64,000 nt of DNA from Conchocele bisecta (Eukaryota > Mollusca > Bivalvia > Lucinida > Thyasiridae), in NCBI GenBank assembly GCA_029237695.1, contig CM055271.1, forward strand, positions 86,344,208-86,408,207, given 5' to 3'. Below the pieces are notes generated by a model. It had not been told where the DNA came from. It saw nothing but the letters and a program-made list of their open reading frames with translations, and did no database searches. Of the stretch, positions 45,347 to 64,000 are shown one piece after another. Both the position numbers and the translations under genes were made by a program. Position 1 is the stretch's first letter. Every line of letters begins with the position of its first letter.

Positions 45347-46059
45347 GTTTGAAATAACTGTGGGTCAGTGCCGCCCCTGTTCGCGATTACCATGGTGCTT
45401 TTGTTATATACTTTGTACAGTGAAACCTGTCTAAACTGGACACCAATATTTATTTCACATGTGACCTTATTTTTTTTTTTTTATATGAGTTTTTCTGCCA
45501 TTTATCTCGGATGATAATGTCTGCTCGTGATCGCATAGCACACACCTATTGCTCAGAATGATCAAATGCCCGATTTACAGTGATATAGATGTGTATCGTG
45601 TTAATGATTCATATCATTCATACCAGGTCGCTTATAGCCATATGAATTCCGCTTCCGGACGGTACCGGATGGGGACTTATGGCAAAGCGTCCCCAGGGTG
45701 TCCGGCTTAGAGAGGTTTCACTGTAAATCCGGGATTTGATCGTTCTGAGAAATTGTTGTGTGCTATGCGATCACGAAAAGACATTATCACCGGAGATAAA
45801 TGACCAAGAAACTCATCAAAAATAAGATCGCAGGTGTTGTCTTGGTGTCCGGTTGAGAGAGGTTCCCACTGTAACTCTATGTACAATGTATCTATGCTAT
45901 CTATTTATCATATAAAGATATCCCGATGTCAATGTCAATAACGTGTATATCTGTATGCACTTGCGCGAAGTTCTAATTGGTCACCCTATTCTTGTGATGA
46001 TTTTAGACAAATACAAGATGTCATCAGTATACAAGGTCATTTATATGTGTATTAATTAA

Positions 46060-46472
46060 AGGTAAATGCCCACTCAGTAGACACACAATGTTCTTTATAG
46101 TAATTAAATAAGTGTATAATTGTGTCACTTTTCCACGTTCTAAAAATTACGAGTGCCCGCTATACAAATAAAATAATTTAGTAATATGTATTATATTGAT
46201 AGGGACACGAACAGATTATAAAGTATGATCATTGCACATCAAAAAATATATACAGCTAATACATAATAATGGCCGTTAACATTTTAAGGAAACACGATTA
46301 TCGCCCCTGATATCAGTGTGGAAATTTACATCTGATATAAAATGTATAATATTGCCAATCAATACGTGGGTTAATGGTGAATGAATGTTTATTTTGCCAG
46401 AAAATGTCTCAGATGATGTCTCTAATATAAAGAACAGTTTGTTACTACTGAGTGGGCATGTACCTTTAATTA
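46060..46472. mobile_element. MITE of the ATGCCCACTCAGTAGG family, reverse orientation
   Basis: The left end AAAGGTAAATGCCCACTCAG and right end CTACTGAGTGGGCATGTACC enclose the family interior inverted relative to 34030-34655 (TTATCGCCCCTGATATCA). Confidence 0.82.
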
Positions 46473-46587
46473 TCCCGTCAACACAGTGCGTATATGCCGT
46501 GAAACACGGTGCCGTGAAACATTTTTGATATCCAGTCAATACTATTTTTGCATTTTACAGCCATTTGTAGGTGTTGACGGGATAAAT
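46469..46587. mobile_element. Small TTATCCCGTCAACAC-ended MITE
   Basis: TTATCCCGTCAACAC at the left is inverted as GTGTTGACGGGATAA at the right. The copy at 59776-59875 lacks the left terminus. Confidence 0.6.
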
Positions 46588-46595
46588 AGAATAGT

Positions 46596-46699
46596 AGGTT
46601 AGTGCCGTGAATGGGAAAACATATCTGGCGCGGCACGGAAACGGGATGTGCTCGGCATAGCCTCGCCCATCCCGTTTCCTGAGCCTTGCCAGATATGTC
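46596..46699. mobile_element. Truncated palindromic MITE at the left border of the Polinton-like element
   Basis: The left arm starts GGTTAGTGCCGTGAATGGGA. The right arm stops after GCCAGATAT, about 27 bases short of the complete copy at 59886-60018, and coding-type sequence of the element follows. This marks the current left edge of the element. Confidence 0.75.
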
Positions 46700-47175
46700 A
46701 TCCAATGCATTATATTCCTGTAAACAGTTTTTCATGTTCTTTTGTTGTTTTATTAACAAGTCTAAACCAATTTTCAATTTCAGGGCCATACTTATACTTC
46801 TTTTTTTTTGGAGGCTGTCTCTCAAATGAACCCGAATTACTGGGTAAAAGATGTATTGTATGATGATCCAGATTTGCTAGAAGTTGGTGTAAATGGTAAT
46901 TGTGTGATCTAATGGAAATAGGTGTCGATGTGAACTGAGGTTTCCCACTCAATGAGGGTGTAGAAACGGTGATATAGATCTACGCTAAGTTAACAGGACT
47001 AGGATTTGTAGACATACTAGACATTGAAGAAAATCTTGAAGATTCATTTTGCTTTTTAGTTGTTTTCTTTTTAGTTGTTTTCTTTTGAGATTTTTTATTT
47101 CGTGTTTTCTTTTGTTTTTTAATTGTTTTCTTTTTAGTTTGTTTTTTGGTTAGTTTTCTATTTTCACGTTTTTGT
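46700..47175 (-). pseudogene. Lys-rich protein fragment of the Polinton-like element
   Basis: A minus-strand frame is very rich in lysine (KKKTIKKQKKTRNKKSQKK at about 47060-47150) and then becomes Ser/Pro-rich. After a stop near 46980 an open 80-residue frame ends in PPKKKKYKYGPEIENWFRLV. An alternative overlapping frame (46478-46825) reads through the MITE border. The basic composition suggests a DNA-condensing core protein, which is only inference. The 3' part is probably lost to the MITE or deletion. I do not recognise a family. Confidence 0.4.
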
Positions 47176-47506
47176 ACCTGTCCAACGAAGTAAACTTCTA
47201 ATAATTACACCACCTAAAAATCCTCCTCCACCAGGTTTAATATTATTTTTTTCTTTGTATTATCATCAACTGTAGGATCCGCTAATTGTTTAACATCTTT
47301 TTATTTTTTTATTTTTTTCTATAAAACGCACTGTTTGTTGTTAATTTTATTTTATTTTCAACTATATTTTGAGCAGCTACTGAAAACCATTTCAATATCT
47401 CTTTTAACCCAGATTTCAATATTATTTCTCTTGTAAGTTTATGTTGTTCATCACTCAAATTTCTTAAAGCATGGATAATATTTCCTGATGTGTATGAGAA
47501 AGCCAT
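47175..47506 (-). pseudogene. Small Polinton-type protein ending in a Gly-rich hydrophobic motif
   Basis: The open frame starts MAFSYTSGNIIHALRNLSDE, continues QHKLTREIILKSGLKEIL and breaks in an A-run near 47310. A shifted frame then reads KQLADPTVDDNTKKK, and a further one PGGGGFLGGVIIRSLLRW. I recall small proteins with a helical half and a (K)n-QKGGGFLPxLL-type tail as common Polinton components, possibly core-peptide (pX)-like. That identity is an inference. It is immediately downstream of the ATPase gene on the same strand, and the spacing suggests co-transcription. Two frameshifts in homopolymers make it a pseudogene here. Confidence 0.5.
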
Positions 47507-47548
47507 GTTGGTACCTTGATAGAAAATACAATACTGATATCTATATTA

Positions 47549-48217
47549 CTATATTGGAGAATAAATAGTAGGTCCTCTAGTATCCTTATCTGTAAGCCAA
47601 CGATGAAAAATGTCACTTCTTAAACGGAATTGTTTTTTAATTCTTGATTGAAAATCAATTAACAAATAACCATGTTCCTGAGAAGTAGCATCATTGTAGG
47701 CTGAAATTAAGTGTGGACTTTGCATTTGACGTGATAATGTTTTAATTTGTAACCCATCACGTTCATTTCTAAATAAAATCATGTAACGAGAGTTAAGACT
47801 TATAGTTCTACTCGATTTATTTTGTTGAAACATATTTTGTGTAATATATATTACACTTGAATTTCTATGATGACCTTTTCTTGTAAACCATAATTTTATT
47901 GTTTCTTCATCTTTTTCTCCTAACATATCATCAAATACTACAAGATGTGGGATTGTTACATCGGATACAATTTCATTTTCATCATCCGGGATACCTTCAA
48001 TAAATTTAAGGAAATTGAACTTTTCTTGCATAATAGTATAACTGGGTTGCCATTCTTTGTAACACCATATTACTTTTTTGGGTACAATATTAAATAAATC
48101 TTTACGATAATCAATAATCTTTTGTACAATTTCAGTTTTTCCACATCCACTCGGACCTGCTATATAAATGTTACAGGGATGTTGAAATAACAAAGACAAT
48201 AGGTCTTCGTTATCCAT
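47549..48217 (-). CDS. FtsK/HerA-type DNA-packaging ATPase
   Basis: This is a complete 222-residue frame. The Walker A motif is GPSGCGKT at residues 21-28 and the Walker B HLVVFDDM has Asp at 96-97. A YITQN segment near residue 130 fits the sensor region, followed by NSRYMILFRNERD and a C-terminal YLLIDFQ. This is the A32-like ATPase family that pumps DNA into capsids in Polintons, adintoviruses and related dsDNA viruses. It acts at a capsid portal vertex. It is uninterrupted while the polymerase is badly broken. It starts 95 bases after a histone-type stem-loop that closes the preceding transcription unit, so it must have its own promoter; no clear TATAAAAG is seen. Confidence 0.87.
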   Translation of the reverse strand: MDNEDLLSLLFQHPCNIYIAGPSGCGKTEIVQKIIDYRKDLFNIVPKKVIWCYKEWQPSYTIMQEKFNFLKFIEGIPDDENEIVSDVTIPHLVVFDDMLGEKDEETIKLWFTRKGHHRNSSVIYITQNMFQQNKSSRTISLNSRYMILFRNERDGLQIKTLSRQMQSPHLISAYNDATSQEHGYLLIDFQSRIKKQFRLRSDIFHRWLTDKDTRGPTIYSPI

Positions 48218-48312
48218 TGTTTACAGTACAAGGTCCATATGTATAATGATATACTATCATGTGTATAGCAATGTTTTATTTGAAAAGGAATTCTGTTCGA
48301 ATAGTTTGGGAT

Positions 48313-48328
48313 GGCCCTGAAAAGGGCC
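48313..48328 (-). terminator. Histone-type 3' stem-loop, SL1
   Basis: On the minus strand it reads GGCCCTTTTCAGGGCC, a six-base-pair stem with a TTTC loop, preceded by CCCAAAC and followed by ATCCCA. This matches the replication-dependent histone mRNA consensus including the CCAAA and ACCCA flanks. It closes the transcription unit that starts at about 49112. Confidence 0.82.
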
Positions 48329-48341
48329 GTTTGGGTAAAGG

Positions 48342-48428
48342 TGCGAGTACTGTTATTTTTATTTTTTAAAAAGACACGAGTACTGGTACATTTTTAAAAT
48401 AAAAAAAGACACGAGTACTGGTACAATA

Positions 48429-48460
<32 letters not shown>

Positions 48461-48463
48461 TTT

Positions 48464-48525
<62 letters not shown>

Positions 48526-48545
48526 TTTATTTCCCACGAGTACTG
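48342..48545. repeat. Poly-T tracts with CACGAGTACTGGTAC repeats
   Basis: CACGAGTACTGGTAC occurs at about 48376, 48411 and 48535, with a degenerate copy at 48344. They are separated by long T and A runs totalling about 100 bases. This lies in the 3' untranslated region between a stop codon and SL1. Confidence 0.85.
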
Positions 48546-48553
48546 GTACTATT

Positions 48554-48807
48554 TTATTTTCGTGGAATCAAATGATTTTCTTTTTCTGGACGAATGTGTT
48601 TACGATGTGCACCAACCCCACTTTTATGTGAATGTATTTTTTCGTCAACTGTACCACACAGGGCCCTTTCTGCATGTTGACTGATCTGCGCCACTGTTTT
48701 CTTGTCCAATTCAAACTTAATAGGCACTTTCAATGGTTTTTTGTGTTAAATGTCAAGTCCCGATTTTCACACTGTTTCTCTAGTTTCTTTGATAATGTGT
48801 CTGTCAT
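48554..48807 (-). pseudogene. Small basic protein, start overlapping the previous stop
   Basis: The ATG at 48807 overlaps the TGA of the upstream frame (ATGA), an arrangement of translationally coupled or bicistronic viral genes. The frame reads MTDTLSKKLEKQC, shifts once near 48730, and continues with FELDKKTVAQISQHAERALC and a His/Lys-rich tail HRKHIRPEKENHLIPRK before TAA at 48554. About 84 codons. I do not recognise it. It shares promoter A1 and stem-loop SL1 with the preceding gene. Confidence 0.5.
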
Positions 48808-49079
48808 GCGTCCAGTTGAACACTATGTCGTGATGCAATGTTCTCTAGTTTCTGTAATATTCTTTCTGTATTGTTGTTCAGTTTCTGTAGTTCTTTCAAT
48901 ATCATGGAATCTTCTTTCTTCTTCTCTAATGGAATGTATACAGGAACAGTTTGGTTGCTGTTGTAGTTGTTGTTGTTGTTGTGGTGGCTGGAAGGATGGT
49001 TGATATATTTCATTCATCGTCTCTGCTAATATACTCAAAAATCATTGAACGCCAAAATCGTAACTTCTGTGTCAGCCAT
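48804..49079 (-). pseudogene. Asn/Gln-rich coiled-coil small protein
   Basis: The start is MADTEVTILAFNDF (49079), about 34 bases downstream of the TATAAAAG of promoter A1. Two frameshifts follow: a Gln-rich stretch (PPQQQQQLQQQ) in one frame, then KKKEDSMILKELQKLNNNTE, a likely coiled coil, in another, ending at 48804. The CAA/AAC-rich tract at about 48955-48985 may explain one shift. About 90 codons in total. Function unknown; the C-terminal helix suggests oligomerisation. Confidence 0.45.
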
Positions 49080-49111
49080 AGTGTAGAATGTAAATTAATG
49101 ATTTATGATCG

Positions 49112-49150
49112 TCTTTTATACCCATCAGAAGGATTGACCTACTTAGAAAT
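49112..49150 (-). promoter_or_regulatory. Class A promoter A1
   Basis: On the minus strand it reads AGTAGGTCAATCC, then TTCTGATGGGTATAAAAGAC. The same block recurs at 50234, 56010-56055 and 58085-58133. The upstream CCAAT-type box seen in the other three is less clear here (a TGATTGGTCA match at about 49165-49175). Confidence 0.75.
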
Positions 49151-49293
49151 TGATAAAATCAAGTGACCAATCACAGTGTATCTTACAAAACGATAGCTGC
49201 TAACCAATATTCCATTTACAGTACTCTTTTCTAACATTTAATTGGGGATACTGGGATAACTCTTAATAATTTTAGTTTCTATGTTCAAATCCC

Positions 49294-49641
49294 TCAAAAA
49301 AGGAATTTTATGACTGTATAGATGAAAAGCAAAGGTTTAAGATCCTTGTCAAAGTAAATCTGACTATCCTTCCCATATGTTCTAGAACTTACTAACCTAT
49401 AAATTTTATTTTTTTCTATCACAGTTATCTTTGGACAAATACCAAACGGTATAAATCTAGAATTGTTTGTTATGTACCCTATGAAAGGATAATATTGATA
49501 TTTGGGTGATTCATAAATGTTTACATTATTAATAGTGTATTCTCCGTTTACTATGCCTATAGTACAATTTTTGAGAAAATCGAAACATTTACATTCTTCG
49601 ACTTCCGGATGCTGATCACAATGTTTTCTTAGTTGATCCAT
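49294..49641 (-). CDS. Uncharacterised 115-residue protein of the element
   Basis: This uninterrupted frame starts MDQLRKHCDQHPEVEECKC and ends in a hydrophobic VIKFLF tail. It contains an N-terminal Cys/His cluster (HCDQHP, CKC, NC), then a beta-strand-rich stretch (IGIVNGEYTINNVNIYESPK). I do not recognise the family. It is driven by promoter B1, 60-100 bases upstream, and no histone stem-loop or AATAAA lies just downstream of its stop. Confidence 0.5.
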   Translation of the reverse strand: MDQLRKHCDQHPEVEECKCFDFLKNCTIGIVNGEYTINNVNIYESPKYQYYPFIGYITNNSRFIPFGICPKITVIEKNKIYRLVSSRTYGKDSQIYFDKDLKPLLFIYTVIKFLF

Positions 49642-49669
49642 TTTATCAGGGGCTGTGCTCTAAACAATG

Positions 49670-49790
49670 TAATGCTTTCGCTTCAGAGTTCAGTAGACTA
49701 ATGATATCCCTATGGAATTTATGGCTTATTTTATAAACGTCACGATGTAACGATAGTATTGAAGCTGTTGCAAAATGCTTAATGTTTAAC
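49670..49790. promoter_or_regulatory. Class B bidirectional promoter B1
   Basis: On the minus strand a TTTATAAAATAAGCCATAAA box is followed by CATTAGTCTACTGAACTCTG and GAAGCGA. The whole 120 bp, including the opposite side (GATAGTATTGAAGCTGTTG), is paralogous to 51660-51790. At 51.7 kb it separates divergent genes; here the opposite side has no gene. Confidence 0.65.
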
Positions 49791-49861
49791 AACTAATGAT
49801 ACAATATACAAAGTTAATAGGATATACATTGCAAAGTAATCTTTTCGTAATAATGTGTGGT

Positions 49862-49877
49862 GGCCCTGAAAAGGGCC
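49862..49877 (-). terminator. Histone-type 3' stem-loop, SL2
   Basis: The minus strand reads GGCCCTTTTCAGGGCC, followed by ACCACA (consensus ACCCA) and, about 15 bases on, the purine-rich ACGAAAAGATTA, resembling a histone downstream element. It lies 144 bases after the stop of the gene at 50021. Confidence 0.83.
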
Positions 49878-50020
49878 GTTTTTGCTTAGAGTGTACAACT
49901 GTACAAATTAATATTCAATGGTAGTACGGCGCCATTTGTTGTTTGATTCTCGAGTTTTAACTTTCAAAACACCTGTAGTGTCAGGTTTTGCTTCTCGTAA
50001 AACTCTTGCCGTCCTCCATT

Positions 50021-50182
50021 TCATTCAAATTCTTTGTAAGCAGGTTTTGGCTTTTCCTTTATTTTCCTCAACAGGTCAGCCGTAACCATTTGTAACGTTT
50101 CTATGTCTTTCTGCATCGACCCTACGACTTCAACCAAATCTGCGATCCGCCTTCCCATCATATTGCTTCGTTCGGTATTCAT
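50021..50182 (-). CDS. 53-residue coiled-coil protein
   Basis: A short complete frame starts MNTERSNMMGRRIADLVEVV about 50 bases after promoter A2 and stops at 50021. Residues about 12-45 form an amphipathic helix with hydrophobic residues at heptad spacing (IADLVEVVGSMQKDIETLQM), and the tail is Lys/Pro-rich. I do not recognise it. The promoter, leader, frame and SL2 make a complete unit like that of the gene at 58194, which raises confidence that such a short frame is real. Confidence 0.55.
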   Translation of the reverse strand: MNTERSNMMGRRIADLVEVVGSMQKDIETLQMVTADLLRKIKEKPKPAYKEFE

Positions 50183-50233
50183 TTTCTTGAGTGTTCAATG
50201 AAACATGTGAAGTATGTTGTTAAAAAACACATG

Positions 50234-50325
50234 CTTTTTATACCCATTAAACGGATTGACCTACTTTTTTTAGTTTAGTCATTTTTTCAGATTTTCGTCC
50301 AATCAGAAAGCTGTTGTAAAACGCG
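50234..50325 (-). promoter_or_regulatory. Class A promoter A2
   Basis: The minus strand has CTTTCTGATTGGACGAAAAT (inverted CCAAT box), CTGAAAAAATGACTAAACT, AGTAGGTCAATCC and GGGTATAAAAAGC in that order. It is nearly identical to A3 over about 90 bp. Confidence 0.85.
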
Positions 50326-50506
50326 TTTTGTGAACAAAGTTTGTTTACACAAGCTTGACTGTAAAAACGGATTGAAAATCATCCAATGAAGGGGTAGAAT
50401 ACTTAACCAATCAAATCCTCTAATTTTTACCCAATGAAATCATAGCTGAAATCATTTCTGGATTTAAAGCGTATAGTATTCATTCTATTCATTCTTACAT
50501 ACCAGA

Positions 50507-50708
50507 ATGCAGATCAAGAAATTCTTCCACCGTTTGAGAAACATTGTATTCTCCAGGAAAAATGATGTTAAGGGAAGAAAAAGAGAGAAATAAAGAATTA
50601 TTACAACAATTCTTTGCAAGACGTGGTTATCATTGGCCTTCCAAACAAAAAATTGTTTGGAAAGTTACATTAAATAACTTATATCCTGATCTGTCTGAAT
50701 TCTATTAG
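50507..50708 (+). pseudogene. Small basic protein with a frameshift
   Basis: The frame starts MQIKKFFHRLRNIVFSRKND. A second frame, overlapping from 50562, carries EEKERNKELLQQFFARRGYH and ends SEFY at 50708. I read one gene of about 66 codons with one shift. It is strongly basic at its N-terminus and helical after that. Function unknown. It is divergent from the 50021-50182 gene and is followed by a damaged histone-type stem-loop. Confidence 0.42.
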
Positions 50709-50721
50709 ACAGAGATCAAAC

Positions 50722-50738
50722 GGTCCTTTTCAGGAGGA
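50722..50738 (+). terminator. Damaged histone-type 3' stem-loop, SL5
   Basis: CAAAC precedes GGTCCTTTTCAGGAGGAC. The 5' arm and loop match the histone pattern and the 3' arm carries an extra base pair's worth of change. About 16 bases on is CCAGAAAGAAAC, close to the classical downstream element. It begins 13 bases after the stop codon. Confidence 0.6.
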
Positions 50739-50863
50739 CAATATAATTTTCCAGAAAGAAACACTTGCATTTTATAAATCATATGAATTAACCATATGAA
50801 TTATAAAAATGATAAATAACAAAACAATAAAATACATTTCAACTTGTATTCATTTAACAATAT

Positions 50864-50869
50864 TTTATT
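50864..50869 (-). terminator. Polyadenylation signal of the zinc-knuckle gene
   Basis: AATAAA lies in the context TTGTTCAATAAAATATTG on the minus strand, about 90 bases after the stop at 50958. The same context occurs on the plus strand at 57796-57813. Confidence 0.7.
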
Positions 50870-50957
50870 GAACAACAATATATTTACAACATGTGTAATA
50901 GTGTCTATTCAAAATTGTATTCATTTAACAATACAAATAAATCAATCAAATCTAAAA

Positions 50958-51669
50958 TCATTTTTCATCTTCTTGACTGAACCGCAATTTCCTCTTCTTG
51001 ATTTGAACACTCGGTTCATCTTGGCGTTTACGTTTACGATTGTTCACTGGTTTCTCGGTGGTCTTAACATCCACTGTGTTAGGCGTTGGTTTCTGGTCAC
51101 AATCACAAGCCCAATGTAATTTCGATTTACAGATGAAACATCCAGCGTACATAACATTTCTTGGTAGCTTCAGATGACTCTCGTTCGTAATAAGACATGA
51201 ATTTTCCAACACACAGGTCTTGGGTAATACTAGGAGAATCCAAAAATTGAACTTCATGAGAATATGGATTCACAAACACATCCATGTACTTTCCTTGTAG
51301 CTTCTGGCTACATTTATTAGCCCAATGCTCCGTTGATTGACAGATGTAACATCTGTTAGGTGATATTTCGTTCCCTCCATATTTCTCATCGATGCTGAAT
51401 TTTGTAAACCTCTTTCCAGTAGAAATCAGGTACTCAGAGTCGCCCGAATAATTGTAAGATGTAAACGATCCAACAAAGTTCCCATTATGTTTTATAGGAA
51501 TAGGTTTTCGGTATGTTGCTGAATTCAACTTCATGAGTAAACGGATTTACATATAAATTCATTTTACATCCTTTGTGCCAATATTTCATACTTTCGAAAT
51601 AGTCAGCAAAATGTTCCACTCGTGTTTTTGTAGTTGAATGGAAGATCGATCTGTCGCTTGAGAGTCCAT
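50958..51669 (-). pseudogene. Multi-zinc-knuckle protein with C-terminal nuclear-type basic tail
   Basis: The start MDSQATDRSS (51669) follows promoter B2. Frames then contain repeated units: a degenerate one (KYWHKGCKMN, NPFTHEVEF), one with CYICQSTEHWANKC and NPYSHEVQF, and one with CFICKSKLHWACDC. The last two fit C-x2-C-x4-H-x4-C zinc knuckles, which usually bind single-stranded nucleic acid. The last 40 residues are rich in Lys/Arg (NNRKRKRQDE, IKKRKLRF), like a nuclear localisation signal. Three or more frameshifts, one near 51190, break it. Internal triplication of a knuckle plus NPxxHEVxF module is visible. Divergent from the polymerase gene, it may be a replication-associated binding protein (inference). 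Confidence 0.6.
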
Positions 51670-51790
51670 GTCGCTTCAGAGTTCAGTAGACTAATGATGA
51701 CCATATGGGATTTATGGCTTCTTTTATAGACGTCACGTTTAACGCTAGTATATAAGCTGTTGTAAATTGATTAATACTTTATATAAAATT
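51660..51790. promoter_or_regulatory. Class B bidirectional promoter B2
   Basis: On the minus strand CGTCTATAAAAGAAGCCATA is followed by CATTAGTCTACTGAACTCTG and GAAGCGACATGG, placing the zinc-knuckle ATG just after it. On the plus strand GCTAGTATATAAGCTG (about 51743-51758) faces the polymerase start at 51795. It is a paralogue of 49670-49790. Confidence 0.7.
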
Positions 51791-51794
51791 CAAC

Positions 51795-54700
51795 ATGCCA
51801 CTTGTACCATACTCGACACCGAGAGTGAAACCGAAGAGCAACCAGATGTTAGAATTTGATTTATGATCTTATACGAAGAAAAAAGTCGAAGATCAAGAAA
51901 ATTCAGAACTGAATCATCAGTTTTTAAAACAACATTCAAGAAATTTGATGTAGACGCACACCCTCAAAATTTCGTTGGGGTGGGGGTATTATTTGATGAT
52001 ATCGTTCATCAAATCATCGAACGAATTGATGGTGATCCACACGACAAAATCAGGATAACATTAAATCATCCTGCATTAAAGATGGGGATACCGATTCCAT
52101 TCTTAAATGTTGAAGATTTGAAAGGAAATATATTGTTACAATCAAGAAATAGAAAAAGTTATACAATCGAATATGGATTTTAATTTGAACGATGGTGAGA
52201 TGACAATTGAAACAACGTTTATTTACCAAAATACCAACAGGTTCTGGAAGAAAGAAGATGACCTCTGAAATTGATTCTCGAGTTTTCACGAAAAAAAAGA
52301 AAACTGTTGTAAAAATTGAAAATTCAAAAGACAATATGTGCTTAGCCAGGGCTATTGTTGTTTGGAAAATGTCATGCTGATAGAGAAGTTTCTTCAACAT
52401 GGAATATGCGATGGAATGTAATTCGACAGTCATCACGTCCTTTACAAAGTATTGAAGCCAAGAAATTATTGAATGAAGTTGGAATTTCACCACAAAAAGC
52501 TTGTGGAATTGAAGAATATAAGAAAATACAACAATAATATGTATCCAGAATATGTGATCAAGATTCATCAACAACATGTGAAAACAGAATTGTTGTTTGA
52601 ATATCCAGAAATTCAGTCATACACCAAAATAATACATGTATTCTATAATCAAGATCACTATGATTACATTACAAATATCGTAGGATTTCTTGGTTGTCAT
52701 TACTATTGTGAAATGTGTAATGTTGGTTACCAAAATCGCGAAACACATATATGCCCTACTTCGTGTAAGGCATGTCGTTCCAAAACAAAATGTCATGTGA
52801 TAGATTGTATTAAGTGTAAAGATTGTCTCAGAAACATTTTATAGTGGAACGTGTTTTGCAAATCACAAGCAAATTGAAGGGCGACAAAAGAAATCAATTT
52901 GTCAACTCATAAAATGTTGCGATAAATGTGGAGGACAGTTTGCCGATTCCAAGAAGAATCATACATGTAAAGGAAAGAAGAAATGTAAATTTTGTAAAAA
53001 GATTGTTAATTTTGACCACAAATGTCATATTCAGCAGTATAAAAGCAAAACTGAAGAAGATGATCAGGAACCGTTTTTCATATTTTATTAGATTTCGAAT
53101 GTCAACAAGACACTGGTGTACACATTCCTAACTATTGTATTGCACACAGAGCTTGTGATGAATGTATCAATGAACCATTAGAATTTAATTGTGAATGTTG
53201 TAGTCGGTTTTCCTGAAGGACGAGAAGTAGTATTTGAAGGAAAAAATACTTTGACAGATTTTTGTAATTGGTTGTTTTCAAAACAACATAAAGGTGCTAC
53301 AGCTATTGCCCATAATTTCAAAGCGTATGATGGTCAGTTCATACTTCACCATCTCATTGAAAAGGGGTGTTACAACCGAAGGTAATAATGAACGGTAATA
53401 ACATCATGGTTATGGAAACTGGAGGTATACGATTGATTGATTCATATAATTTCATAAATTCAGGATTGGCAAAATTTCCAGAAACCTTTGAATTGAAAGA
53501 AATGGCTAAGGATATTTCCACATTGGGCAAATACTGATAAATTTGCCGCTTATGTTGGTCCATACGTTGATGTGTCTTATTATAAACCAGATTCAATGGG
53601 GATAACTGTTAGGGAAAAGTTTTTATCATGGTATAACGAACGTGTGAAAAACAACGATTGTTTCAATTTCAAACAAGAAATGGAAAAATATTGTCGATCG
53701 GATGTAGATATTTTGAGACGTGGTTGTGGAGAATTCAGGAAGGTATCATGGAATAGGGGGTGGGGGGTATAGATCCGTTTCTAGAAGCCAGTACAATCGC
53801 TGACGCATGTAACAAAGTTTGGCGTAACAAATATATGCCAAGTAATCAGATCGAATTATTTCAAGCAGAGATCCGATTAAACGCAAATTTTCAATGAAAG
53901 TATTCGATGGCTTCAAAGTATTGCACACGAAAACAATATTGTTATCCAACATCGCAAAAAATGGTGGAGAATATCAAATTGGTCCTTATACTGTAGATGG
54001 ATTTCACAAAGAATCAAAATACTATCTATGAGTTTCTAGGGGACCTATGCATGGTTGTCCTAAATGTTATCCAAATCGTAATCTAAAAAACCCGATAAAT
54101 GGTGAAACAATGCAAAATTTATATTCTCAAACATTTGAAAGATTGGAATATTTCAGTGTAAGTGGTTATAAAATTCATACTATATGGGAACATGAGTTTG
54201 ATTTAAAAATGAAAACTGATAAAGAATATACAAAAAGTTGATCGAACAATTCTTTCCAAAGTGTGATCCGATTGAACCTAGGGAAGGATTGTTTGGTGGA
54301 CGTTGTAATGCTATAAAAATTAAATATGATATTGAAGAAAATTCAGATGATGAAATCAAATATATTGATATTTGTTTCATTGTATCCATTTGTATGTAAA
54401 CACAAAGAATATCCGATAGGACACCCCGATATTTTAACAAAAGAAAATATTGATATAGAAAACATCCGACAGTATGAGGGTTTGATAAAATGTAAAGTTC
54501 TCCCTCCCTCCGGACAATCTATTTCATCCAGTGTTACCAACACATTGTAATAACAAACTCATGTTTCCATTATGTAGAAACATGTGCAGAAGAAAGTTCT
54601 ACAAAGTGTACACATACAATTGAAGAACGAGCTTTGGTTGGCACCTGGGTGTCAATAGAATTGTATAAAGCATTGACTGTGGTTATACGTTGTTATACGT

Positions 54701-55647
54701 GTATGAAGTATGGCATTTTTTATTTTTCGGAAAAATCTAATGATTTTTCTCGGGATATGTGGACAATTTTTCTTAAAATCAAACAAGAAGCAAGTGGTTA
54801 CCCAGGTGGTGTGTAACAGAAAAAGACAAAGAAAAATTTTGTTAAGGATTATGAACAAGCTGAAGGTATTTGTCTTGATCCATCAAACATACAAACAAAT
54901 ACGGGGCGTAGAGCATTTGCAAAGATTATGTTAAATTGTTTATGGGTAAATTGGCACAACGTGAAATCATGACACAAACGGAATATATCAATAATCCTTC
55001 AAAAATATTTTGATTTGATTTCAAATCCATGTATAATGGTAAAACATGTAGAAATATGATAATGAATCCATTCCTATTGGTTAACTATGAAACTAGACTT
55101 GAACACATTGAATCCCATGCAACATCAAACGTTATAGTGGGATCATATGTAACAGCATATGCAAGACTTGAACTATACAGTGTTTTTGGAAAAGTTAAAT
55201 GAGCGTGTCTTGTATTTCGATACAGACAGTTGTATGTACATACACAAGCAGAATTTATGGAACCCTCCCATAATCAATAGTAGGCTTGGTAAGTGGACTG
55301 ATGAAGAACCCGGAAATAAAATAATAAGTTTTAGGGGTATAGGACCAAAGAGTTATGCATACAAGTTGATAACAAAAGCTGGGGAAATAAAATCCAAATG
55401 TAAAGTTAAAGGACTGACACTCGATTACAACACAAGTCAAGTAGTTAACTTTGATACGTATGTTCAATGTGCAGAGGACCGAAGTACCGAAGTGAAAGTT
55501 GTATATACATGTAAAATCCGGAGACATGTAAACAGAACAGTAACGAGTGAATGTCAAAGCAAGACATTTAGGTCTGTGTACACAAAACGTGCCATTGTTG
55601 ACAATTTCAATACTGTACCATACGGTTATAAAACATTGAGATTTTGA
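51795..55647 (+). pseudogene. Polinton/adintovirus-type DNA polymerase B, heavily frameshifted
   Basis: The start MPLVPYSTPRV is 40-50 bases after a TATATAAG box. The N-terminal region (to about 52180) resembles the first domain of Polinton polymerases, followed by a region with CEMCNVGYQ and paired Cys motifs (52700-52830, 52915-53030). Exonuclease motifs are visible: DFECQ (about 53090), AHNFKAYDGQ (53308-53340) and YCRSDVDIL (53690-53715). Polymerase motif A is SLYPF (about 54375), motif B a KIMLNCLW stretch (about 54925), and motif C YFDTDS (55216-55233). The C-terminus ends in VPYGYKTLRF. Length, about 1280 codons' worth, is normal. More than ten frameshifts or stops are spread along it, so no active enzyme can be made. 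This family does protein-primed replication of linear DNA. Confidence 0.88.
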
Positions 55648-55701
55648 TTGAATATACAAGGTGTATTAAGAATTGTTGTTTGAATATCCAGAAATTCAGT
55701 C

Positions 55702-55914
55702 ATGGACATATTTAATAACTACAGTCGGTTAGCTGTGCTACCAGTGGAGTTACTGGTTATGTTAATAAAATTGTATCTGTCTGAGAGTAATGCCAAAAGT
55801 CTCGCACGCACTGACGAGCGTGCGAAACGCATTATTGAAGATGCTTTTTGGACTGTCATGCTAAGGAAAGACTTTAGGATCACTCATTCACATTTACAAC
55901 ATGAGGCCATTTAG
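55702..55914 (+). CDS. F-box-like protein, 70 residues
   Basis: The complete frame starts MDIFNNYSRL. Residues about 13-58 follow the F-box pattern: LPVELLVMLI, a hydrophobic middle with LARTDERAKRII, and FWTVMLRKDF. F-box domains bind SKP1 and bring substrates to SCF ubiquitin ligases; some viruses use them to redirect host degradation. There is no second domain, so it may be truncated or act alone. It starts directly after a 33-bp exact repeat of polymerase sequence. The assignment rests on pattern similarity only. Confidence 0.5.
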   Translation: MDIFNNYSRLAVLPVELLVMLIKLYLSESNAKSLARTDERAKRIIEDAFWTVMLRKDFRITHSHLQHEAI

Positions 55915-55962
55915 TGTATATAAATTTTCGCAAGATATAATACACAATTTTTAACTGTAAAA

Positions 55963-56055
55963 AACGTGTTTACAACACGCTTTCTGATTGGACGAAAATC
56001 TGAAAAAATGACTAAACTATCAAAAGTAGGTCAATCCGTTTGATGGGTATAAAAG
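55963..56055 (+). promoter_or_regulatory. Class A promoter A3
   Basis: AAAACGTGTTTACAACACGC, CTTTCTGATTGGACGAAAAT, TGACTAAACTATCAAAAGT, AGGTCAATCC and GGGTATAAAAG occur in order; TATAAAAG is at 56048-56055. Confidence 0.87.
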
Positions 56056-56135
56056 ACGATAATAAAATCATTAATTTACATTCTATGAGAAGCATTACAT
56101 TGTTCAGAGTACAACCCTGAGTCTACACATTTAGG

Positions 56136-56678
56136 ATGATAACTTTAATATATTTATTTCACGAGTACGTGCTTAGGAATTTATTTCCTTACTATAATTT
56201 GAAATTTGAAGCAAGAGAAGCCTCGAATAGCTTCGTAATTAACTGGAACAAGTTCGATAATTTGCTGAACGATATCAACAGAACACATGTTTCACAGAAC
56301 ACTATGGAGAAGCCTACAGAAAACTGGGATAATGATGAGAGACCGAGTGTGCAACCACAGCGAGAAGACTGGGATGAGGAGATCCGACGAGCTCCGGCAC
56401 CATCATTTGCGATTCGTGGAAAAACTAACAAGAGGACTACACACAGATTTCTCTTAACATGTAGAAGCTGTGGATCCAGGGACTGTGGTGGGCATGAAAA
56501 ATACATCAAAAGAGTAAACAATATAATAAACAGCAAACTTGAATTAGACGATCAAGACAAAAGGCCCTTTTCAGGGCCAATACAAATATTTAGAATAGAA
56601 AAAACTTGTAATCAGTTGTACCTATATAAACGTTTTACATTTTGTCATAAACCATTATCTTCAAGGTATTCGCTCTAG
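56136..56678 (+). CDS. Charged protein with a Cys/His cluster, 180 residues
   Basis: The frame starts MITLIYLFHEYVLRN, has an acidic/Trp-containing middle (NWDNDERPSVQPQREDWDEE) and a Cys/His cluster CRSCGSRDCGGH near residue 110, likely a small zinc site. The last 40 codons run through stem-loop SL3 (56563-56578, encoding KRPFSG), so the genuine stop was probably before the stem-loop and has been lost or shifted. An upstream ATG at 56088 gives only 11 codons. Driven by promoter A3. Family not recognised. Confidence 0.5.
   Translation: MITLIYLFHEYVLRNLFPYYNLKFEAREASNSFVINWNKFDNLLNDINRTHVSQNTMEKPTENWDNDERPSVQPQREDWDEEIRRAPAPSFAIRGKTNKRTTHRFLLTCRSCGSRDCGGHEKYIKRVNNIINSKLELDDQDKRPFSGPIQIFRIEKTCNQLYLYKRFTFCHKPLSSRYSL
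56563..56578 (+). terminator. Histone-type 3' stem-loop, SL3
   Basis: GGCCCTTTTCAGGGCC is preceded by GACAAAA and followed by AATACA, with a purine-rich AGAATAGAAAAAAC about 15 bases on. It currently lies inside an open frame (see 56136), which suggests stop loss upstream. Confidence 0.8.
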
Positions 56679-56723
56679 AAACAACAAATATTATACAGTA
56701 CTTTTAGATAATAAACAATAAAA

Positions 56724-57172
56724 ATGATGGGGCATAATTATGAGTTGTGGTTACAAAACGATGTTTGTCTGATAAAGAAATCCCGAGAAATACCTAGACA
56801 AAGAAAGACAATACATGACACATTCAATAAATGTATGGTTGAACAACTTCAATTATTAATTAAAAAAGAAGTAAATGACAATTGTTATGGATGTCAGGTT
56901 GAACATCCAAGTCAAGTACGACATCAACTCTGCTTATTCACAGATCAAGATGAACAAACAAATTTATTCATATTAACCAGCTCTACAGAAATTAGATCCC
57001 TATAAAATTATGGAAGAATGGTATCCAATTCTCAAAGAATATGACATTGGACGATCAAGAGAAATTGGAAGCATACAGACTGTGGGTACAAATTAAAAAC
57101 AAAATCCGTTTTAGATCCAATGAATCGTGGTTGGATCAGTTGAAGAAACAAGTCAAACAATCCTGGAAATAG
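56724..57172 (+). pseudogene. Uncharacterised Polinton-associated protein with CYGC motif
   Basis: The first frame (56724-57005) starts MMGHNYELWLQNDVCLIKK and contains NCYGCQVEHPSQVRHQLCLF, a Cys/His cluster I recall in uncharacterised proteins from animal Polinton-like elements. After a shift near 56985 another frame carries LDPYKIMEEWYPILKEYDI. A third ends in WLDQLKKQVKQSWK at 57172 (a short frame with its own ATG at 57041). I take this as one gene of about 150 codons with two shifts. Function unknown; the Cys/His pattern suggests metal binding. Confidence 0.5.
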
Positions 57173-57184
57173 ATTGTTACTGAA

Positions 57185-57200
57185 GACTATAAAAGTAGGA
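57185..57200 (+). promoter_or_regulatory. TATA-type promoter for the 57249 gene
   Basis: GAAGACTATAAAAGTAGG lies about 55 bases before the ATG. It resembles the TATA part of class B promoters but lacks their downstream CATTAGTCTACTGAAC block. Confidence 0.4.
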
Positions 57201-57248
57201 ACGGATTATAACTGAATCATTCTATGAATAGACACAGTTGAAGAAACA

Positions 57249-57763
57249 ATGAATCCTTTGACAGATCTAGCAAATCATATTGCAATCAGGAAACCAGTAA
57301 CAATGAATCCTTTGACAGATCTATTAAATCACATACCATATAGGAAAGCATTGATACTTGCTTTCAAACTAAAAGTATCAATTGAACAATATCTTACACC
57401 CAAGATCATCAAGGATGAATTAGAGAAAATGGAGATGTTGAAGAGTTCAAAGAAGCCTTATTAGCAACAACGGGGTTCTCCAAAGATTCAAGGAATAAAG
57501 TAGAACAAATAACATTTGAACAATGGAGAAACGAAGTTGTCGAAAATGACAATATTGTGAATTTCTTATTTAACCGCTGTAAACCGTACTTGTGGAATAG
57601 TGCAAAGATTGAAGCATTGTATGGACTAACGCTCCCATTGCTCATGCTTCCTGGACATAGAGACAGTTTTGAACCAATGGATATAGTACAGATTAGTGAG
57701 ACTGAATCAATGTGTGTATGTACCCATTGCTCACGCTTCAAGGATCGAGAGCATACCTCTTGA
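57249..57763 (+). pseudogene. Uncharacterised protein with N-terminal MNPLTDL repeat, one frameshift
   Basis: The open frame starts with two copies of MNPLTDLxNHIxxRK (repeat length 18 codons), then KALILAFKLKVSIEQYL. Near 57440 the frame shifts and continues with FKEALLATTGFSKDSRNKVE, EQWRNEVVENDNIVNFL and a C-terminal CVCTHCSRFKDREHTS. About 170 codons. Family not recognised. It is followed by an AATAAA signal, not a histone stem-loop. Confidence 0.5.
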
Positions 57764-57800
57764 ATGTTAAACATACATGTTATAAAATATGTTATTGTTC

Positions 57801-57806
57801 AATAAA
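57801..57806 (+). terminator. Polyadenylation signal
   Basis: AATAAA lies in TTGTTCAATAAAATATTG, 38 bases after the stop at 57763, matching the minus-strand signal at 50864 in its surrounding bases. Confidence 0.7.
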
Positions 57807-57814
57807 ATATTGTT

Positions 57815-58040
57815 AAAACTTTACATATCTTGTATTCAATTTTTCCCCATAAATTGAAAAATACCAATATATTGATTTACAATCAATATTTATTTTTCAT
57901 TAACTTTGTCAATATTAGAGTTGTCAGAAGTGGATGAAAAATATTTCTAGGATATTTTCATATGTATTTGATAATATTGGAGTTGTCAAAAATATTTGAA
58001 AATTATATGGGAGAACAGCACAACCCACTAGGATATCACA
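57815..58040. other. Short intergenic region with an imperfect direct repeat
   Basis: ATATTGGAGTTGTCA and ATATTAGAGTTGTCA occur 60 bases apart. No gene. Confidence 0.4.
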
Positions 58041-58133
58041 AAACGTGTTTGCAACACGCTTTCTGATTGGACAAAAATCTGAAAAATGACTAAACTATCA
58101 AAAGTAGGTCAATCCTTCTGATGTGTATAAAAG
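58040..58133 (+). promoter_or_regulatory. Class A promoter A4
   Basis: AAAACGTGTTTGCAACACGC, CTTTCTGATTGGACAAAAAT, TGACTAAACTATCAAAAGT, AGGTCAATCC and GTGTATAAAAGC occur in order; TATAAAAG is at 58126-58133, 61 bases before the ATG. Confidence 0.88.
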
Positions 58134-58193
58134 CAAAAAAAACATACAGCTGTATTTCATTAGTCATTCAACTGTTCATCCAACTACATAAGA

Positions 58194-58406
58194 ATGCAGA
58201 AGAACGGTGAATGCTCTATGTGCAGTGAACCCTGCTATATAGAGTGTAGCAAATGCTATACAGTGTTGAACACACAAGGGGAAGAACATAATTGCCCAGA
58301 GCTCGACGATGGCTTTTTCGAGGAAGAGGACCTTAAAGACCTCGAAATTTGTGACGCCTGTCAATTAGTCGTCGATTGTATGTGGAGTAAACTGAACACT
58401 ACATAG
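58194..58406 (+). CDS. Acidic CxxC protein, 70 residues
   Basis: The complete frame starts MQKNGECSMCSEPCYIECSK. It has two N-terminal CxxC/CxxxC pairs, an acidic centre (ELDDGFFEEEDLKDLEI) and a C-terminal CDACQLVVDC, probably chelating one or two zinc ions. Small acidic cysteine-rich proteins of this kind are often regulators in small DNA viruses, but I cannot assign a function. It is the clearest complete transcription unit in the element: promoter A4, a 60-base leader, an intact frame, and stem-loop SL4 17 bases after the stop. Confidence 0.62.
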   Translation: MQKNGECSMCSEPCYIECSKCYTVLNTQGEEHNCPELDDGFFEEEDLKDLEICDACQLVVDCMWSKLNTT

Positions 58407-58422
58407 TTTACTAAAAGGCAAC

Positions 58423-58438
58423 AGCCCTTTTCAGGGCT
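58423..58438 (+). terminator. Histone-type 3' stem-loop, SL4
   Basis: AGCCCTTTTCAGGGCT has an intact six-pair stem and TTTC loop. It is followed 13 bases later by TCAAGAAATGA, close to the CAAGAAAGA downstream element bound by U7 snRNP. The distance from the stop codon is typical of histone genes. Confidence 0.82.
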
Positions 58439-58494
58439 ATACACTTTCTCAAGAAATGAATATCTTACATACTGCTCTTAAACGTTCAGGGTGA

Positions 58495-58637
58495 CACTAT
58501 AGCGTGATACAAGAAGTTTCCACCCCCTGATAAAATTCACGAATCAACAAAATGGTTCAGGGGTGCCACTATGGTACGGTTTTTAACCACTATAGCGTAA
58601 TGCAAGAAGTTTCCACCCCTGATAATGGGAGTAATAA
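58495..58637. repeat. Two tandem units of about 93 bp at the right end of the element
   Basis: CACTATAGCGTGATACAAGA at 58495 and CACTATAGCGTAATGCAAGA at 58588, each followed by AGTTTCCACCCC and TGATAA. A third partial motif (CTATGGTACGG) leads into the palindrome at 58638. Confidence 0.8.
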
Positions 58638-58739
58638 GGGGTGTCACCTATGGTACGGTTTTTTAACATGTGTATTTTACATAGACAAAATTGTCTATGG
58701 AAAAAACACATGTTAAAAAACCGTACCATAGTGGCACCC
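58638..58739. repeat. 102-bp palindrome, provisional right end of the element
   Basis: The outer arms GGGTGTCACCTATGGTACGG and CCGTACCATAGTGGCACCC enclose TTTTTTAACATGTGT and its complement around CATAGACAAAATTGTCTATG. It is comparable in size and symmetry to the palindrome at 9493-9598, with unrelated sequence. Confidence 0.82.
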
Positions 58740-59770
58740 ATTACTACTGCCAAGGTCATGTTAATTGGGACACGAGTGCTCACATGTATCAAATGTCCAC
58801 ATATTGAAGCGATCCGTCAAGTAATTATTAAAGTTATATAGTGATGAAGAAACTTGTACAAACATTTTGACATTTGTTGACGCAGACGACGGACGGAAAA
58901 GAGGCGACTATAGTTCTGCTAAAGCAGGCGCAACAAAAGCTGCACATTTCCCATGTGTTATATGTTACCTTATAACCAGATAACACAGTAGTTATTGCAT
59001 TTTCAGTACAGTCTGGTGAGGGTCTATACTGTTCACAATTTGATCAGTGATTCATTTTGCATTCAGCAAACACTGAATGATGTTTAGGCTGTATCATCTG
59101 CGTCTGATCAGGATTTCTAAATTGGACAGGAATTAATAATGAAATAAATCTGGCGTTGTCTAATGTCATGATTTGTAATTTATTTAATGGAGTTTAACGG
59201 CCTGTCAACAGCTAATATAAGGCCATTTTAGGCTGGGCTAACATGGTAGAATCCCAAATTTCACCTGTTGTGATTGTGGGGAAAATCCCAAATCAGAACT
59301 AAATATGTACGAACAAACATATATTTATATTCAGCCCAGAAATTAGAATAACCTGACCTGGTGCCAGGTTCACACCACACCAGAGTCATTTAGCCGTACT
59401 ACATAAAAGTAATACAATTATTATTACATCTTACTACTTTTATAATGGGTATAACCGGATTCAACTCTCAAGTAACAAGGAAGCAAGACATGCACCTGGG
59501 GGCTAAACCAGGGATATCAGAATTCCGTTAAAGATGAAACAAATTGTTAAATTTACCCTGCGCATGCTACTAACAAACCGCCTATTCCATGAACTGCAAT
59601 GAAGCTGTCCCTTAAGTATAACCCTGCGATACGATTACATAATAATTATTACCAAACATCATTATCAAATTACATTGTACTTGCAAAAGTACTGCATTTT
59701 ACGATGTTTTTACTATGAAGCTGTGACCCTGATCATAACATTTAACGTTGGTATGTATATGATACCAAAG
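58740..59770. other. Non-coding flank
   Basis: I see no supported gene or repeat here. It is AT-rich intronic sequence. Confidence 0.45.
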
Positions 59771-59775
59771 TAAAC

Positions 59776-60018
59776 TGCGTATGTGCCGTGAAACACGGTG
59801 CCGTGAAACATTTTTGATATCCAGTCAATACTATTTTTGCATTTTACAGCCATTTGTAGGTGTTGACGGGATAAATAGAATAGTAGGTTAGTGCCGTGAA
59901 TGGGAAAAAATATCTGGCGCGGCACGGAAACGGGATGTGCTCGGCAGAGCCTCGCCCATCCCGTTTCCTGAGCCTTGCCAGATATTTTTTCCCATTCACG
60001 GCACTAACCTACTATTCT
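59776..60018. mobile_element. Repeat pair flanking the element, right copy, with complete palindromic MITE
   Basis: 59776-59980 matches 46485-46699 nearly base for base. The palindromic MITE is complete here (59886-60018): GGTTAGTGCCGTGAATGGGA, a centre of GCTCGGCAGAGCCTCGCC, and the inverted arm ending TCACGGCACTAACCTACT. Confidence 0.85.
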
Positions 60019-60750
60019 CTATAATTGCGAAAAAGACATGGGGCAAAAAGGAGGAGGAGGAGGACCAGGAGGATAAAAAACGAAATATTTTGGAAATTGA
60101 CTCCGAAACCTGGTGAGATAGCTTGGAAATGATGTAACTAAGAAAACAAAAGTTTATGTTAAATTCCCATAGTAAAATTCGCAAGTAAATCAATATGGAA
60201 TTTCATCAAAATTTAATTTTTGGGAGGGTGACTTTTTTATATTGATGAAAAAGTACTTACAATTAAATTGTTTTTAGATTTGATCTGTTTAATAGCCAAA
60301 CGTTCGTCGGCAGCACAACATTGAACAGACAGCAGATAAGGTTAGCTAAGTCTTCGCCTAAACATCATGTGCGTGTCAAATCAGATTATTGACTCCCTCC
60401 AAGACACGTGTGTGCTTTGCAATAATGAACAGACATTATCGTTAGAGACATCAGGTATTGTGGTTGTCTGTCCTCCCAGTATACATAGGCGCTACAGTAC
60501 TGAAGATGTGGTTGCGACTGGATAAATGGGGCTTACGGGATGTGCGACCAGTGTAGATCCAGATCAGCCTGTGTATCCACACAGTCTGATCAGGATCGGC
60601 AATGTACGCCATTACATCAATGAGACACTCGACAATCAATATAGATCAATATCAATCTACACGAGTGTGCTACATGTATTTGATCAGGAGCTACACTTGC
60701 CAGAAATCCCATAGACCCAATTTCTCCAATCACAACCACATTATGTACCT
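60019..60750. other. Intronic sequence with a bivalve-type repeat fragment
   Basis: 60040-60075 has a GGAGGAGGAGG tract. About 60450-60620 contains GTGTAGATCCAGATCAG and GTCTGATCAGGATC fragments of the repeat also at 39480, 61600 and 63370. No gene. Confidence 0.5.

Positions 60751-63198: not shown

Positions 63199-64000
<802 letters not shown>

Follow-up and report, generated by a model that had tools for sequence, protein, structure and literature searches.

A decayed Polinton in the 64-kb window (the whole stretch of DNA analysed) contains four small non-histone genes, once five, which probably had the layout of replication-dependent histone genes and had their 3' ends formed by the SLBP/U7 processing of the host. 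The signal is a 3' stem-loop whose usual place in animals is the end of histone mRNAs. Observed directly are the stem-loops, where and on which strand they lie, the promoter-like block (class A) paired with each of the four intact ones, and the adjacent Polinton-type polymerase. Sitting at, or close to, the ends of four or five small genes (g1 to g5), the stem-loops suggest that the element had coupled this set to the host DNA-replication programme. The one-to-one link between class-A block and stem-loop is new here and was absent from the first-pass annotation.

Stem-loops of the histone mRNA type

The first-pass annotation listed three exact copies of GGCCCTTTTCAGGGCC, an A/T variant of it and a damaged copy, all of which are found (Table 1). 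A search allowing up to three mismatches returns the four intact copies (chance mean 0.14; at least four in 0 of 100 shuffles). But is this a property of one string? A definition independent of it (six standard pairs, a G-C second pair, a U-A closing pair and a TTT[CA] loop) also gives four matches in the window, all within 46710-59770 and none elsewhere. In 1000 dinucleotide shuffles of the element this count has a mean of 0.053 and a maximum of 1, and none reaches four; on the two sets of shuffles, a chance hairpin was rejected. Using all families at the gathering threshold, cmscan of the whole window reports a single match, at 49837-49882 (-) with 39.0 bits. An E-value run of RF00032 (Histone3) over 46000-60000 gives 39.0, 33.8, 32.6 and 31.5 bits (E 1.4e-8 to 8.8e-6); with a gathering cut-off of 34 bits, one of the four stem-loops passes and the nearest miss is short by 0.2 bit. 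Loop, closing pair and flanks match the model with these scores, and the assignment to the histone mRNA type is supported.

All four intact copies have a 6-bp stem, a 4-nt UUUC loop, a U-A closing pair and a G-C second pair. The last of these is a determinant of the histone stem-loop. The loop and the U-A closing pair comprise bases that PMC6827988 names as important for SLBP. Folding predictions for the five 56-nt stretches return the stem-loop in four (z -2.0 to -3.1). The fifth, the copy at 50722, does not adopt the histone-hairpin fold (z -0.85), so the earlier label 'damaged' was correct. In the variant at 58423, AGCCCTTTTCAGGGCT, both bases of the outermost pair have changed together, as previously described. 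This alters one of the six pairs, and 136 of 500 shuffles reach the same; a single paired change among four copies is not significant, and compensatory evolution was dropped as proof.

Could the hairpin act on the DNA level instead, as a cruciform, a replication or packaging site or a plain terminator, with its histone likeness a matter of convergence? Its sequence, a perfect inverted repeat rich in GC amid AT-rich DNA, would suit this proposal, but RF00032 is matched at 31.5-39 bits by loop, U-A closing pair and flanks, and in four of four cases the hairpin is oriented with the strand of the class-A block, making such a role very improbable.

Table 1. Features of the remnant, by unit.
Feature	Position	Strand	Basis or detail
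g1 class-A block, shortened, core with 2 mismatches	49084-49144	-	93.5% over 62 nt to g3; core 49131-49146
g1 coding region, glutamine-rich, frame broken	48557-49041	-	open pieces 48826-49041, 48807-49013, 48557-48745
g1 stem-loop, GGCCCTTTTCAGGGCC	48313-48328	-	RF00032 33.8 bits at 48288-48333, E 1.2e-6
g2 class-A block	50236-50329	-	93.7% over 95 nt to g3; core 50253-50268; CCAAT part 50297-50309
g2 coding region, frame broken	49911-50194	-	open pieces 50024-50194, 49911-50024
g2 stem-loop, GGCCCTTTTCAGGGCC	49862-49877	-	RF00032 39.0 bits at 49837-49882, above 34-bit cut-off
g3 class-A block	55961-56055	+	93.7% over 95 nt to g4; core 56022-56037; CCAAT part 55981-55993
g3 ORF, 180 aa, Cys/His cluster	56136-56678	+	frame continues through the stem-loop
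g3 stem-loop, GGCCCTTTTCAGGGCC	56563-56578	+	RF00032 32.6 bits at 56558-56603, E 3.4e-6
g4 class-A block	58040-58133	+	93.7% over 95 nt to g3; core 58100-58115; CCAAT part 58060-58072
g4 ORF, 70 aa, Cys-rich, intact	58194-58406	+	stem-loop begins 16 nt past its stop
g4 stem-loop, outer pair A-U for G-C	58423-58438	+	RF00032 31.5 bits at 58418-58463, E 8.8e-6
g5 coding region, frame broken	50477-50708	+	open pieces 50477-50590, 50538-50705
g5 stem-loop, damaged	50722-50738	+	13 nt past TAG; CCAGAAAGAAAC downstream; z -0.85
Class-B promoter-like repeat, CGTGACGTTTATAAAA	49678-49744	-	upstream of ORF 49294-49641; 67-nt repeat, 91%
Second class-B repeat, CGTGACGTCTATAAAA	51671-51737	-	upstream of zinc-knuckle ORFs ending at 50958
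P-loop ATPase of 222 aa, putative Polinton/A32 packaging type, frame open	47549-48217	-	Pox_A32
PolB, protein-primed type, broken, many overlapping-frame pieces	51860-55647	+	PHROG 1907, Pfam, tblastn

Gene ends and the shared upstream block

The stem-loops had been described as standing at the ends of genes. This fits g4, where the stem-loop is 16 nt past the stop of an intact ORF, and g2 and the damaged g5, whose genes are broken and whose stem-loops lie 30 and 13 nt past the stop of an open piece. It fits less well for g1, whose stem-loop is about 225 nt past the stop of an open piece, and for g3, whose open frame reads through the stem-loop and ends 100 nt later. Stops are frequent in this AT-rich DNA, and nearness to one may carry little weight. 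What do these units encode? Pfam gives a weak DUF5858 match alone (E 0.024) for g1 (pieces 48807-49013 and 48557-48745), and no match for g2 (piece 50024-50194), g5 (piece 50538-50705), the g3 ORF or the g4 ORF, whose AF2 model is unusable (mean pLDDT 49.9). No histone family appears among the matches of these scanned pieces and ORFs, on which ground a host histone cluster was rejected. That the stem-loops are chance, or remain from genuine host histone genes that landed in the element, has nothing in its favour except the stem-loops themselves; given the shuffles and the Pfam result, it is scarcely credible.

The class-A block consists of an inverted CCAAT box, GTAGGTCAATCC and TATAAAA, in three copies of about 95 nt and the shortened one of g1, in which the alignment places TGATTGG farther upstream. 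It lies upstream of each of the four intact stem-loops, on the same strand (4/4). Its core occurs four times in the 64 kb, three times exactly and once with two mismatches (chance mean 0.72 at up to three mismatches; at least four in 1 of 100 shuffles). Each core has exactly one stem-loop downstream on its own strand, at a distance of 308-803 nt, and random placement of four hairpins yields this one-to-one pairing in about 2 per 100,000 trials. We infer that this block served as a promoter; PMC1794435 lists CCAAT and TATA boxes for human core histone genes. The one-to-one association makes a co-regulated gene set more plausible.

The class-A blocks are 88-97% alike over 31-99 nt, and clearly mutual copies. 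This is what one would see if a single histone-like 3' end had been captured once and then multiplied as a DNA cassette that included the promoter block, with no role for the stem-loop. However, the gene bodies of g1 to g4 that separate block and stem-loop are essentially unrelated (short matches only, the best of 20 nt, E 0.001), so the two did not travel as one unbroken copy. Pairwise similarity resumes at the stem-loop in six of six pairs, extends 22-33 nt past it in four and ends there in the other two (g1 with g4, g3 with g4). The four stem-loops have stayed 0.94 identical, against 0.21-0.46 across seven bins of flanking sequence (0.63 in the 5 nt immediately 5'), and the paired change, not significant among four sequences, is their sole variation. 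A roleless passenger therefore seems quite improbable.

The purine-rich sequence reported after the stem-loops is present, but it exceeds chance only mildly (purines P 0.006, AAGAAAGA-like core P 0.02; five copies). In the alignment the copies have in common a purine-containing stretch and, farther on, CTT, mostly kept in the damaged g5 copy. The 40 nt downstream of the stem-loop are more alike than random (P 0.004), and so are the 40 nt upstream (P 0.0097); the downstream conservation is thus non-specific and was rejected as proof of a U7 site. Are the messages polyadenylated after all? The stem-loop might bind SLBP for translation, stability or localisation, with the mRNAs mainly cleaved and polyadenylated at a nearby AATAAA. 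This hexamer follows the stem-loop at 32 nt in g1, 86 nt in g5 and 131 nt in g3; C. elegans histone genes keep both signals (PMC1924863), and a human H2A pre-mRNA can take either processing route (PMC9756948). However, AATAAA is absent within 450 nt past the stem-loop of g2 and within 700 nt past that of g4 (which has ATTAAA at 388 nt), and, since the hexamer occurs 1.7 times per kb on each strand of the AT-rich element, nearby copies carry little meaning. We regard these dual 3' ends as unlikely.

The carrier element and its relatives

The identification of the carrier as Polinton-type was borne out by its PolB, which is accompanied by a P-loop ATPase. Three PolB pieces match PHROG 1907 (DNA polymerase) at E 3.3e-11, 1.5e-6 and 0.002, and Pfam DNA_pol_B_2 is matched at 7.9e-6 (25.5 bits versus a cut-off of 25.8). 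The PolB of a Polinton contig, L003, finds that of the remnant by tblastn at 4.5e-48. The ATPase matches Pox_A32 with E 7.5e-4 and 19.5 bits, under the curated 22.8. A search of 46701-59800 with the integrase, capsid-like and protease-like proteins of L003 finds no counterpart (best E 1.1), and the left end adjoins a repeat; the element is therefore classed as a remnant and not a full Polinton. One short-chain dehydrogenase exon flanks it on each side. Long inverted repeats also surround it (about 46056-46439 with 61820-62428), but they resemble independent short elements, each with inverted ends of its own. Further ORFs follow class-B repeats and lack a stem-loop (ORF 49294-49641 and the zinc-knuckle ORFs ending at 50958); ORF 51127-51534 matches zf-CCHC in Pfam (E 3.7e-4). 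The idea that ORF 55702-55911 is an F-box protein was abandoned, with no Pfam match and a best E of 0.61, to a designed protein. As the element is decayed, present-day function is unlikely for most units.

Scanning a genome-contig collection gave one contig, L003, a Polinton by its PolB and integrase. This only other Polinton obtained has no Histone3 match at E up to 1 (0/1), and a looser hairpin scan finds a single weak palindrome, at 5521, which is unlike the histone type; the stem-loop is thus not universal in Polintons. Viral contigs scanned with the ATPase, two PolB pieces, two hairpin patterns, the promoter pattern and two PolB motif patterns yielded no relative; these scans rely on exact short patterns and hence would miss distant relatives. 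Two contigs that they gave, L001 and L002, were judged phage by their ORFs, hence chance matches. Against a phage collection, the L003 PolB retrieves one archaeal virus record by tblastn. Among the literature matches listed, no title or abstract describes the histone-type hairpin for a Polinton, a transposon or a DNA virus.

Proposed processing and comparison with known systems

How would such genes have been expressed? Four units would start from the common CCAAT-box/TATA promoter-like block, with no intron evident, and all units (g5 formerly) would end in the histone-type stem-loop followed by the purine-containing stretch. In the active element, host SLBP would bind the stem-loop and the U7 snRNP the downstream stretch, with cleavage a few bases past the stem. 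The resulting mRNAs would be non-polyadenylated and peak when SLBP is available, in S phase or during induced DNA synthesis. The class-B genes, the ATPase and PolB have no stem-loop and presumably use poly(A), which would give the element two expression classes. On balance, we lean towards the broader reading that an animal Polinton lineage runs a non-histone regulon as histone-gene mimics, through a common CCAAT/TATA promoter and the host SLBP/U7 signal, one class of mRNA being poly(A)-free and following host DNA replication, the other not. If so, the histone 3'-end signal can be borrowed by non-histone genes of a virus-like mobile element, and such elements gain a poly(A)-free route coupled to DNA synthesis. 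Poly(A)-selected RNA-seq is blind to such mRNAs, which could explain missed transcripts. The element would also provide a natural experiment on how much of the signal is enough when the gene is not a histone gene.

The remnant has PolB, and probably the P-loop ATPase, in common with Polintons/Mavericks and adintoviruses; it differs from L003 in lacking matches to the integrase, capsid-like and protease-like proteins, and L003 has no stem-loop. Xeno-class adomaviruses and the tailtomavirus with 'Histoid' genes (PMC11071296) are also animal-associated DNA viruses with a histone connection, but there it is a histone-like protein; the main text of that paper has 0 occurrences of stem-loop, hairpin and polyadenyl. 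Loop 27 of potato spindle tuber viroid, as PMC6827988 presents it, was modelled on the histone stem-loop and has the same sequence in a parasitic RNA; it is, however, the loop alone, without the extended stem that SLBP needs, in a plant viroid that has neither U7 processing nor protein-coding genes. The same Rfam family has been named in a virus, SARS-CoV-2 (PMC7786107), but that Histone3 call has 14.7 bits, far weaker than the stem-loops of the element, and in this RNA virus it falls within the nsp3 coding sequence, away from any gene end. Closest are the replication-dependent histone genes themselves (SLBP/U7), which have the 6-bp stem, UUUC loop and U-A closing pair as well as the A-rich 5' flank, upstream CCAAT and TATA boxes and downstream purines, the last being only mildly enriched in the element; unlike them, the genes of the element are non-histone and lie inside a mobile element.

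Upstream blocks and their pairing with hairpins

Three exact copies of a histone-type 3' stem-loop and a paired A/T variant had been placed by the first-pass annotation in the Polinton remnant studied here, and sequence search finds them there, at 48313 (-), 49862 (-), 56563 (+) and 58423 (+) (units g1 to g4 respectively). The copy which it had called damaged, at 50722 (+) in unit g5, indeed no longer folds as a histone hairpin. How are the intact hairpins arranged? A promoter-like block (class A), which the first-pass annotation did not mention, occurs four times, three times at about 95 nt and once, before g1, in a shortened form; in the alignment all four copies keep TGATTGG (an inverted CCAAT box), GTAGGTCAATCC and GTATAAAA unchanged. 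The 16-nt core of the block is found four times in the 64 kb at up to three mismatches (three are exact), with a chance mean of 0.72 and four reached in 1 of 100 shuffles, and it is absent from g5. Each block has a single intact hairpin downstream on its own strand, at a distance of 308, 376, 526 or 803 nt; random placement of four hairpins on both strands of the element reproduces this about 2 times per 100,000 (400,000 trials).

Blastn comparison of the four units gives 88-97% identity over 31-99 nt in the block region and short matches only in the gene bodies (the best 20 nt, E 0.001), with similarity resuming at the hairpin in all six unit pairs. It extends 22-33 nt beyond the hairpin in four of the six and ends at it in g1-g4 and g3-g4. 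Position and motifs suggest that the class-A block is a promoter. A second repeat (class B), 67 nt long and with its copies 91% alike, carries a CGTGACGT/TATA core and precedes two other genes which have no hairpins; we take its TGACGT to be CRE-like. The element thus possessed two or more types of upstream block, of which one, class A, is accompanied by the hairpin.

Hairpins, gene ends and downstream sequence

In the whole 64 kb, only the 49862 copy (39.0 bits) exceeds the 34-bit gathering cut-off of the Rfam Histone3 model (RF00032). Searched by E-value threshold, 46000-60000 yields all four hairpins at 39.0, 33.8, 32.6 and 31.5 bits (E 1.4e-8 to 8.8e-6), three of the four matches being under the Rfam cut-off. 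A generic hairpin definition picks out four sites in the whole window, all of them within the element, and dinucleotide shuffles of the element (n=1000) contain at most one. The non-histone Rfam matches in the same score range are microRNA models only, far under their own cut-offs and all on the 58636-58742 inverted repeat. At 58648-58731 two near-perfect inverted arms of 41 nt are separated by a 2-nt spacer, and several microRNA models match there weakly and below threshold.

Where do the genes end? The long ORF of g3 is open through its hairpin and stops 100 nt further; the explanation is therefore either upstream damage to the frame or a hairpin that does not mark the end of g3. The final open piece of g1 stops about 225 nt ahead of the hairpin, with long A/T runs intervening; the stretch between them at 48360-48560 contains homopolymer runs of A/T together with a short CACGAGTACTGGTAC repeat in three copies. 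AATAAA follows the hairpin at 32 nt in g1, 86 nt in the damaged g5 and 131 nt in g3, and is absent within 450 nt in g2 and 700 nt in g4, the latter having ATTAAA at 388. In the AT-rich DNA of the element AATAAA is frequent, at 1.7 per kb per strand.

The purine-rich sequence reported earlier downstream of the hairpins does stand mildly above random positions (P 0.006, five copies including the damaged one). For the same five copies, a AAGAAAGA-like core downstream gives P 0.02 against random positions. Likeness among the copies exceeds that of random segments in the 40 nt downstream of the hairpins (P 0.004), but also in the 40 nt upstream (P 0.0097). This is modest evidence for a downstream element.

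The carrier element and its surroundings

The element runs from about 46.7 kb to 58.5 kb or beyond. Its description as Polinton-like holds up on its B-type DNA polymerase (PolB), pieces of which, searched separately, match PHROG 1907 DNA polymerase (E 3.3e-11, 1.5e-6 and 0.002); one piece matches Pfam DNA_pol_B_2 at E 7.9e-6 and 25.5 bits, slightly short of the 25.8 cut-off. The polymerase of the only other Polinton obtained (L003, contig CALIZB010000033.1) aligns to it at E 4.5e-48 and 1.2e-17. L003 came from a PolB motif pattern search in a metagenome-assembled genome (MAG), and carries DNA_pol_B_2 and an rve/chromodomain integrase by Pfam; its capsid-like and protease-like ORFs are our own reading, with no Pfam match. 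The MAG in which it is binned is of Bacteroidia, where it is probably eukaryotic contamination. No integrase, capsid or protease resembling those of L003 is found in the element.

Breakage of PolB consists chiefly of frame changes between overlapping open pieces, whereas the nearby ATPase is open. The breaks could be decay or indel errors of long-read assembly.

Features of the element and its flanks
Feature	Position	Strand	Remarks
Short-chain dehydrogenase exon	45222-45434		adh_short E 1.1e-3
P-loop ATPase	47549-48217	-	Open, 222 aa; weak Pox_A32 match
Class-B repeats	49678-49744 and 51671-51737		TGACGT beside TATAAAA; common to two genes without hairpin
B-type DNA polymerase (PolB)	51.86-55.65 kb (51860-55647)	+	Central gene; many pieces, overlapping frames
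Short-chain dehydrogenase exon	63169-63315		adh_short E 2.6e-10; its best relatives of solved structure include carbonyl and L-xylulose reductase

Dehydrogenase exons, of carbonyl or L-xylulose reductase type, lie on both sides of the element, and the remnant therefore probably sits within an intron. The region of the second exon is tandemly duplicated (63192-63432 and 63453-63693, 96% alike). The left end of the element adjoins a repeat that recurs at 59776. The remnant is surrounded by several short repeats, of the TTAAAGGTACATGCCCACTCAGTAGGCACAAA family and another, which have inverted ends and are possibly MITE-like (46053-46472, 46487-46709, 59776-60023 and 61791-62436).

Proposed host 3'-end processing and known systems

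In animals, as described in PMC6303110 and PMC1924863, the hairpin is bound by SLBP and the downstream element pairs with the U7 snRNP; cleavage falls about 5 nt past the stem and leaves no poly(A). The small genes of the element would have used this host SLBP/U7 route for their 3' ends, which is the most likely reading of their sequence. By extension from SLBP biology, the hairpin genes may also have been coupled to S phase. Evidence against the SLBP/U7 reading comes from the open frame of g3, the distance between the last g1 piece and its hairpin, the AATAAA signals after three hairpins, the three scores under the Rfam cut-off, and the lack of such hairpins in L003 and in the viral contig collection.

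Is such an arrangement found elsewhere? Histone3 has no match in L003, the one Polinton examined (0/1; 8,000 of 8,883 bases covered). Strict hairpin patterns return no record from a viral contig collection except two, which we judged to be chance matches in phage. Among the literature matches listed, a set with most subscription journals outside its scope, none reports histone-type hairpins on Polinton genes. The nearest printed parasite case found (PMC6827988) concerns a plant viroid, in which a loop imitates that of the histone hairpin but lacks the histone stem. The machinery is known; a Polinton that applies it to non-histone genes would be new.
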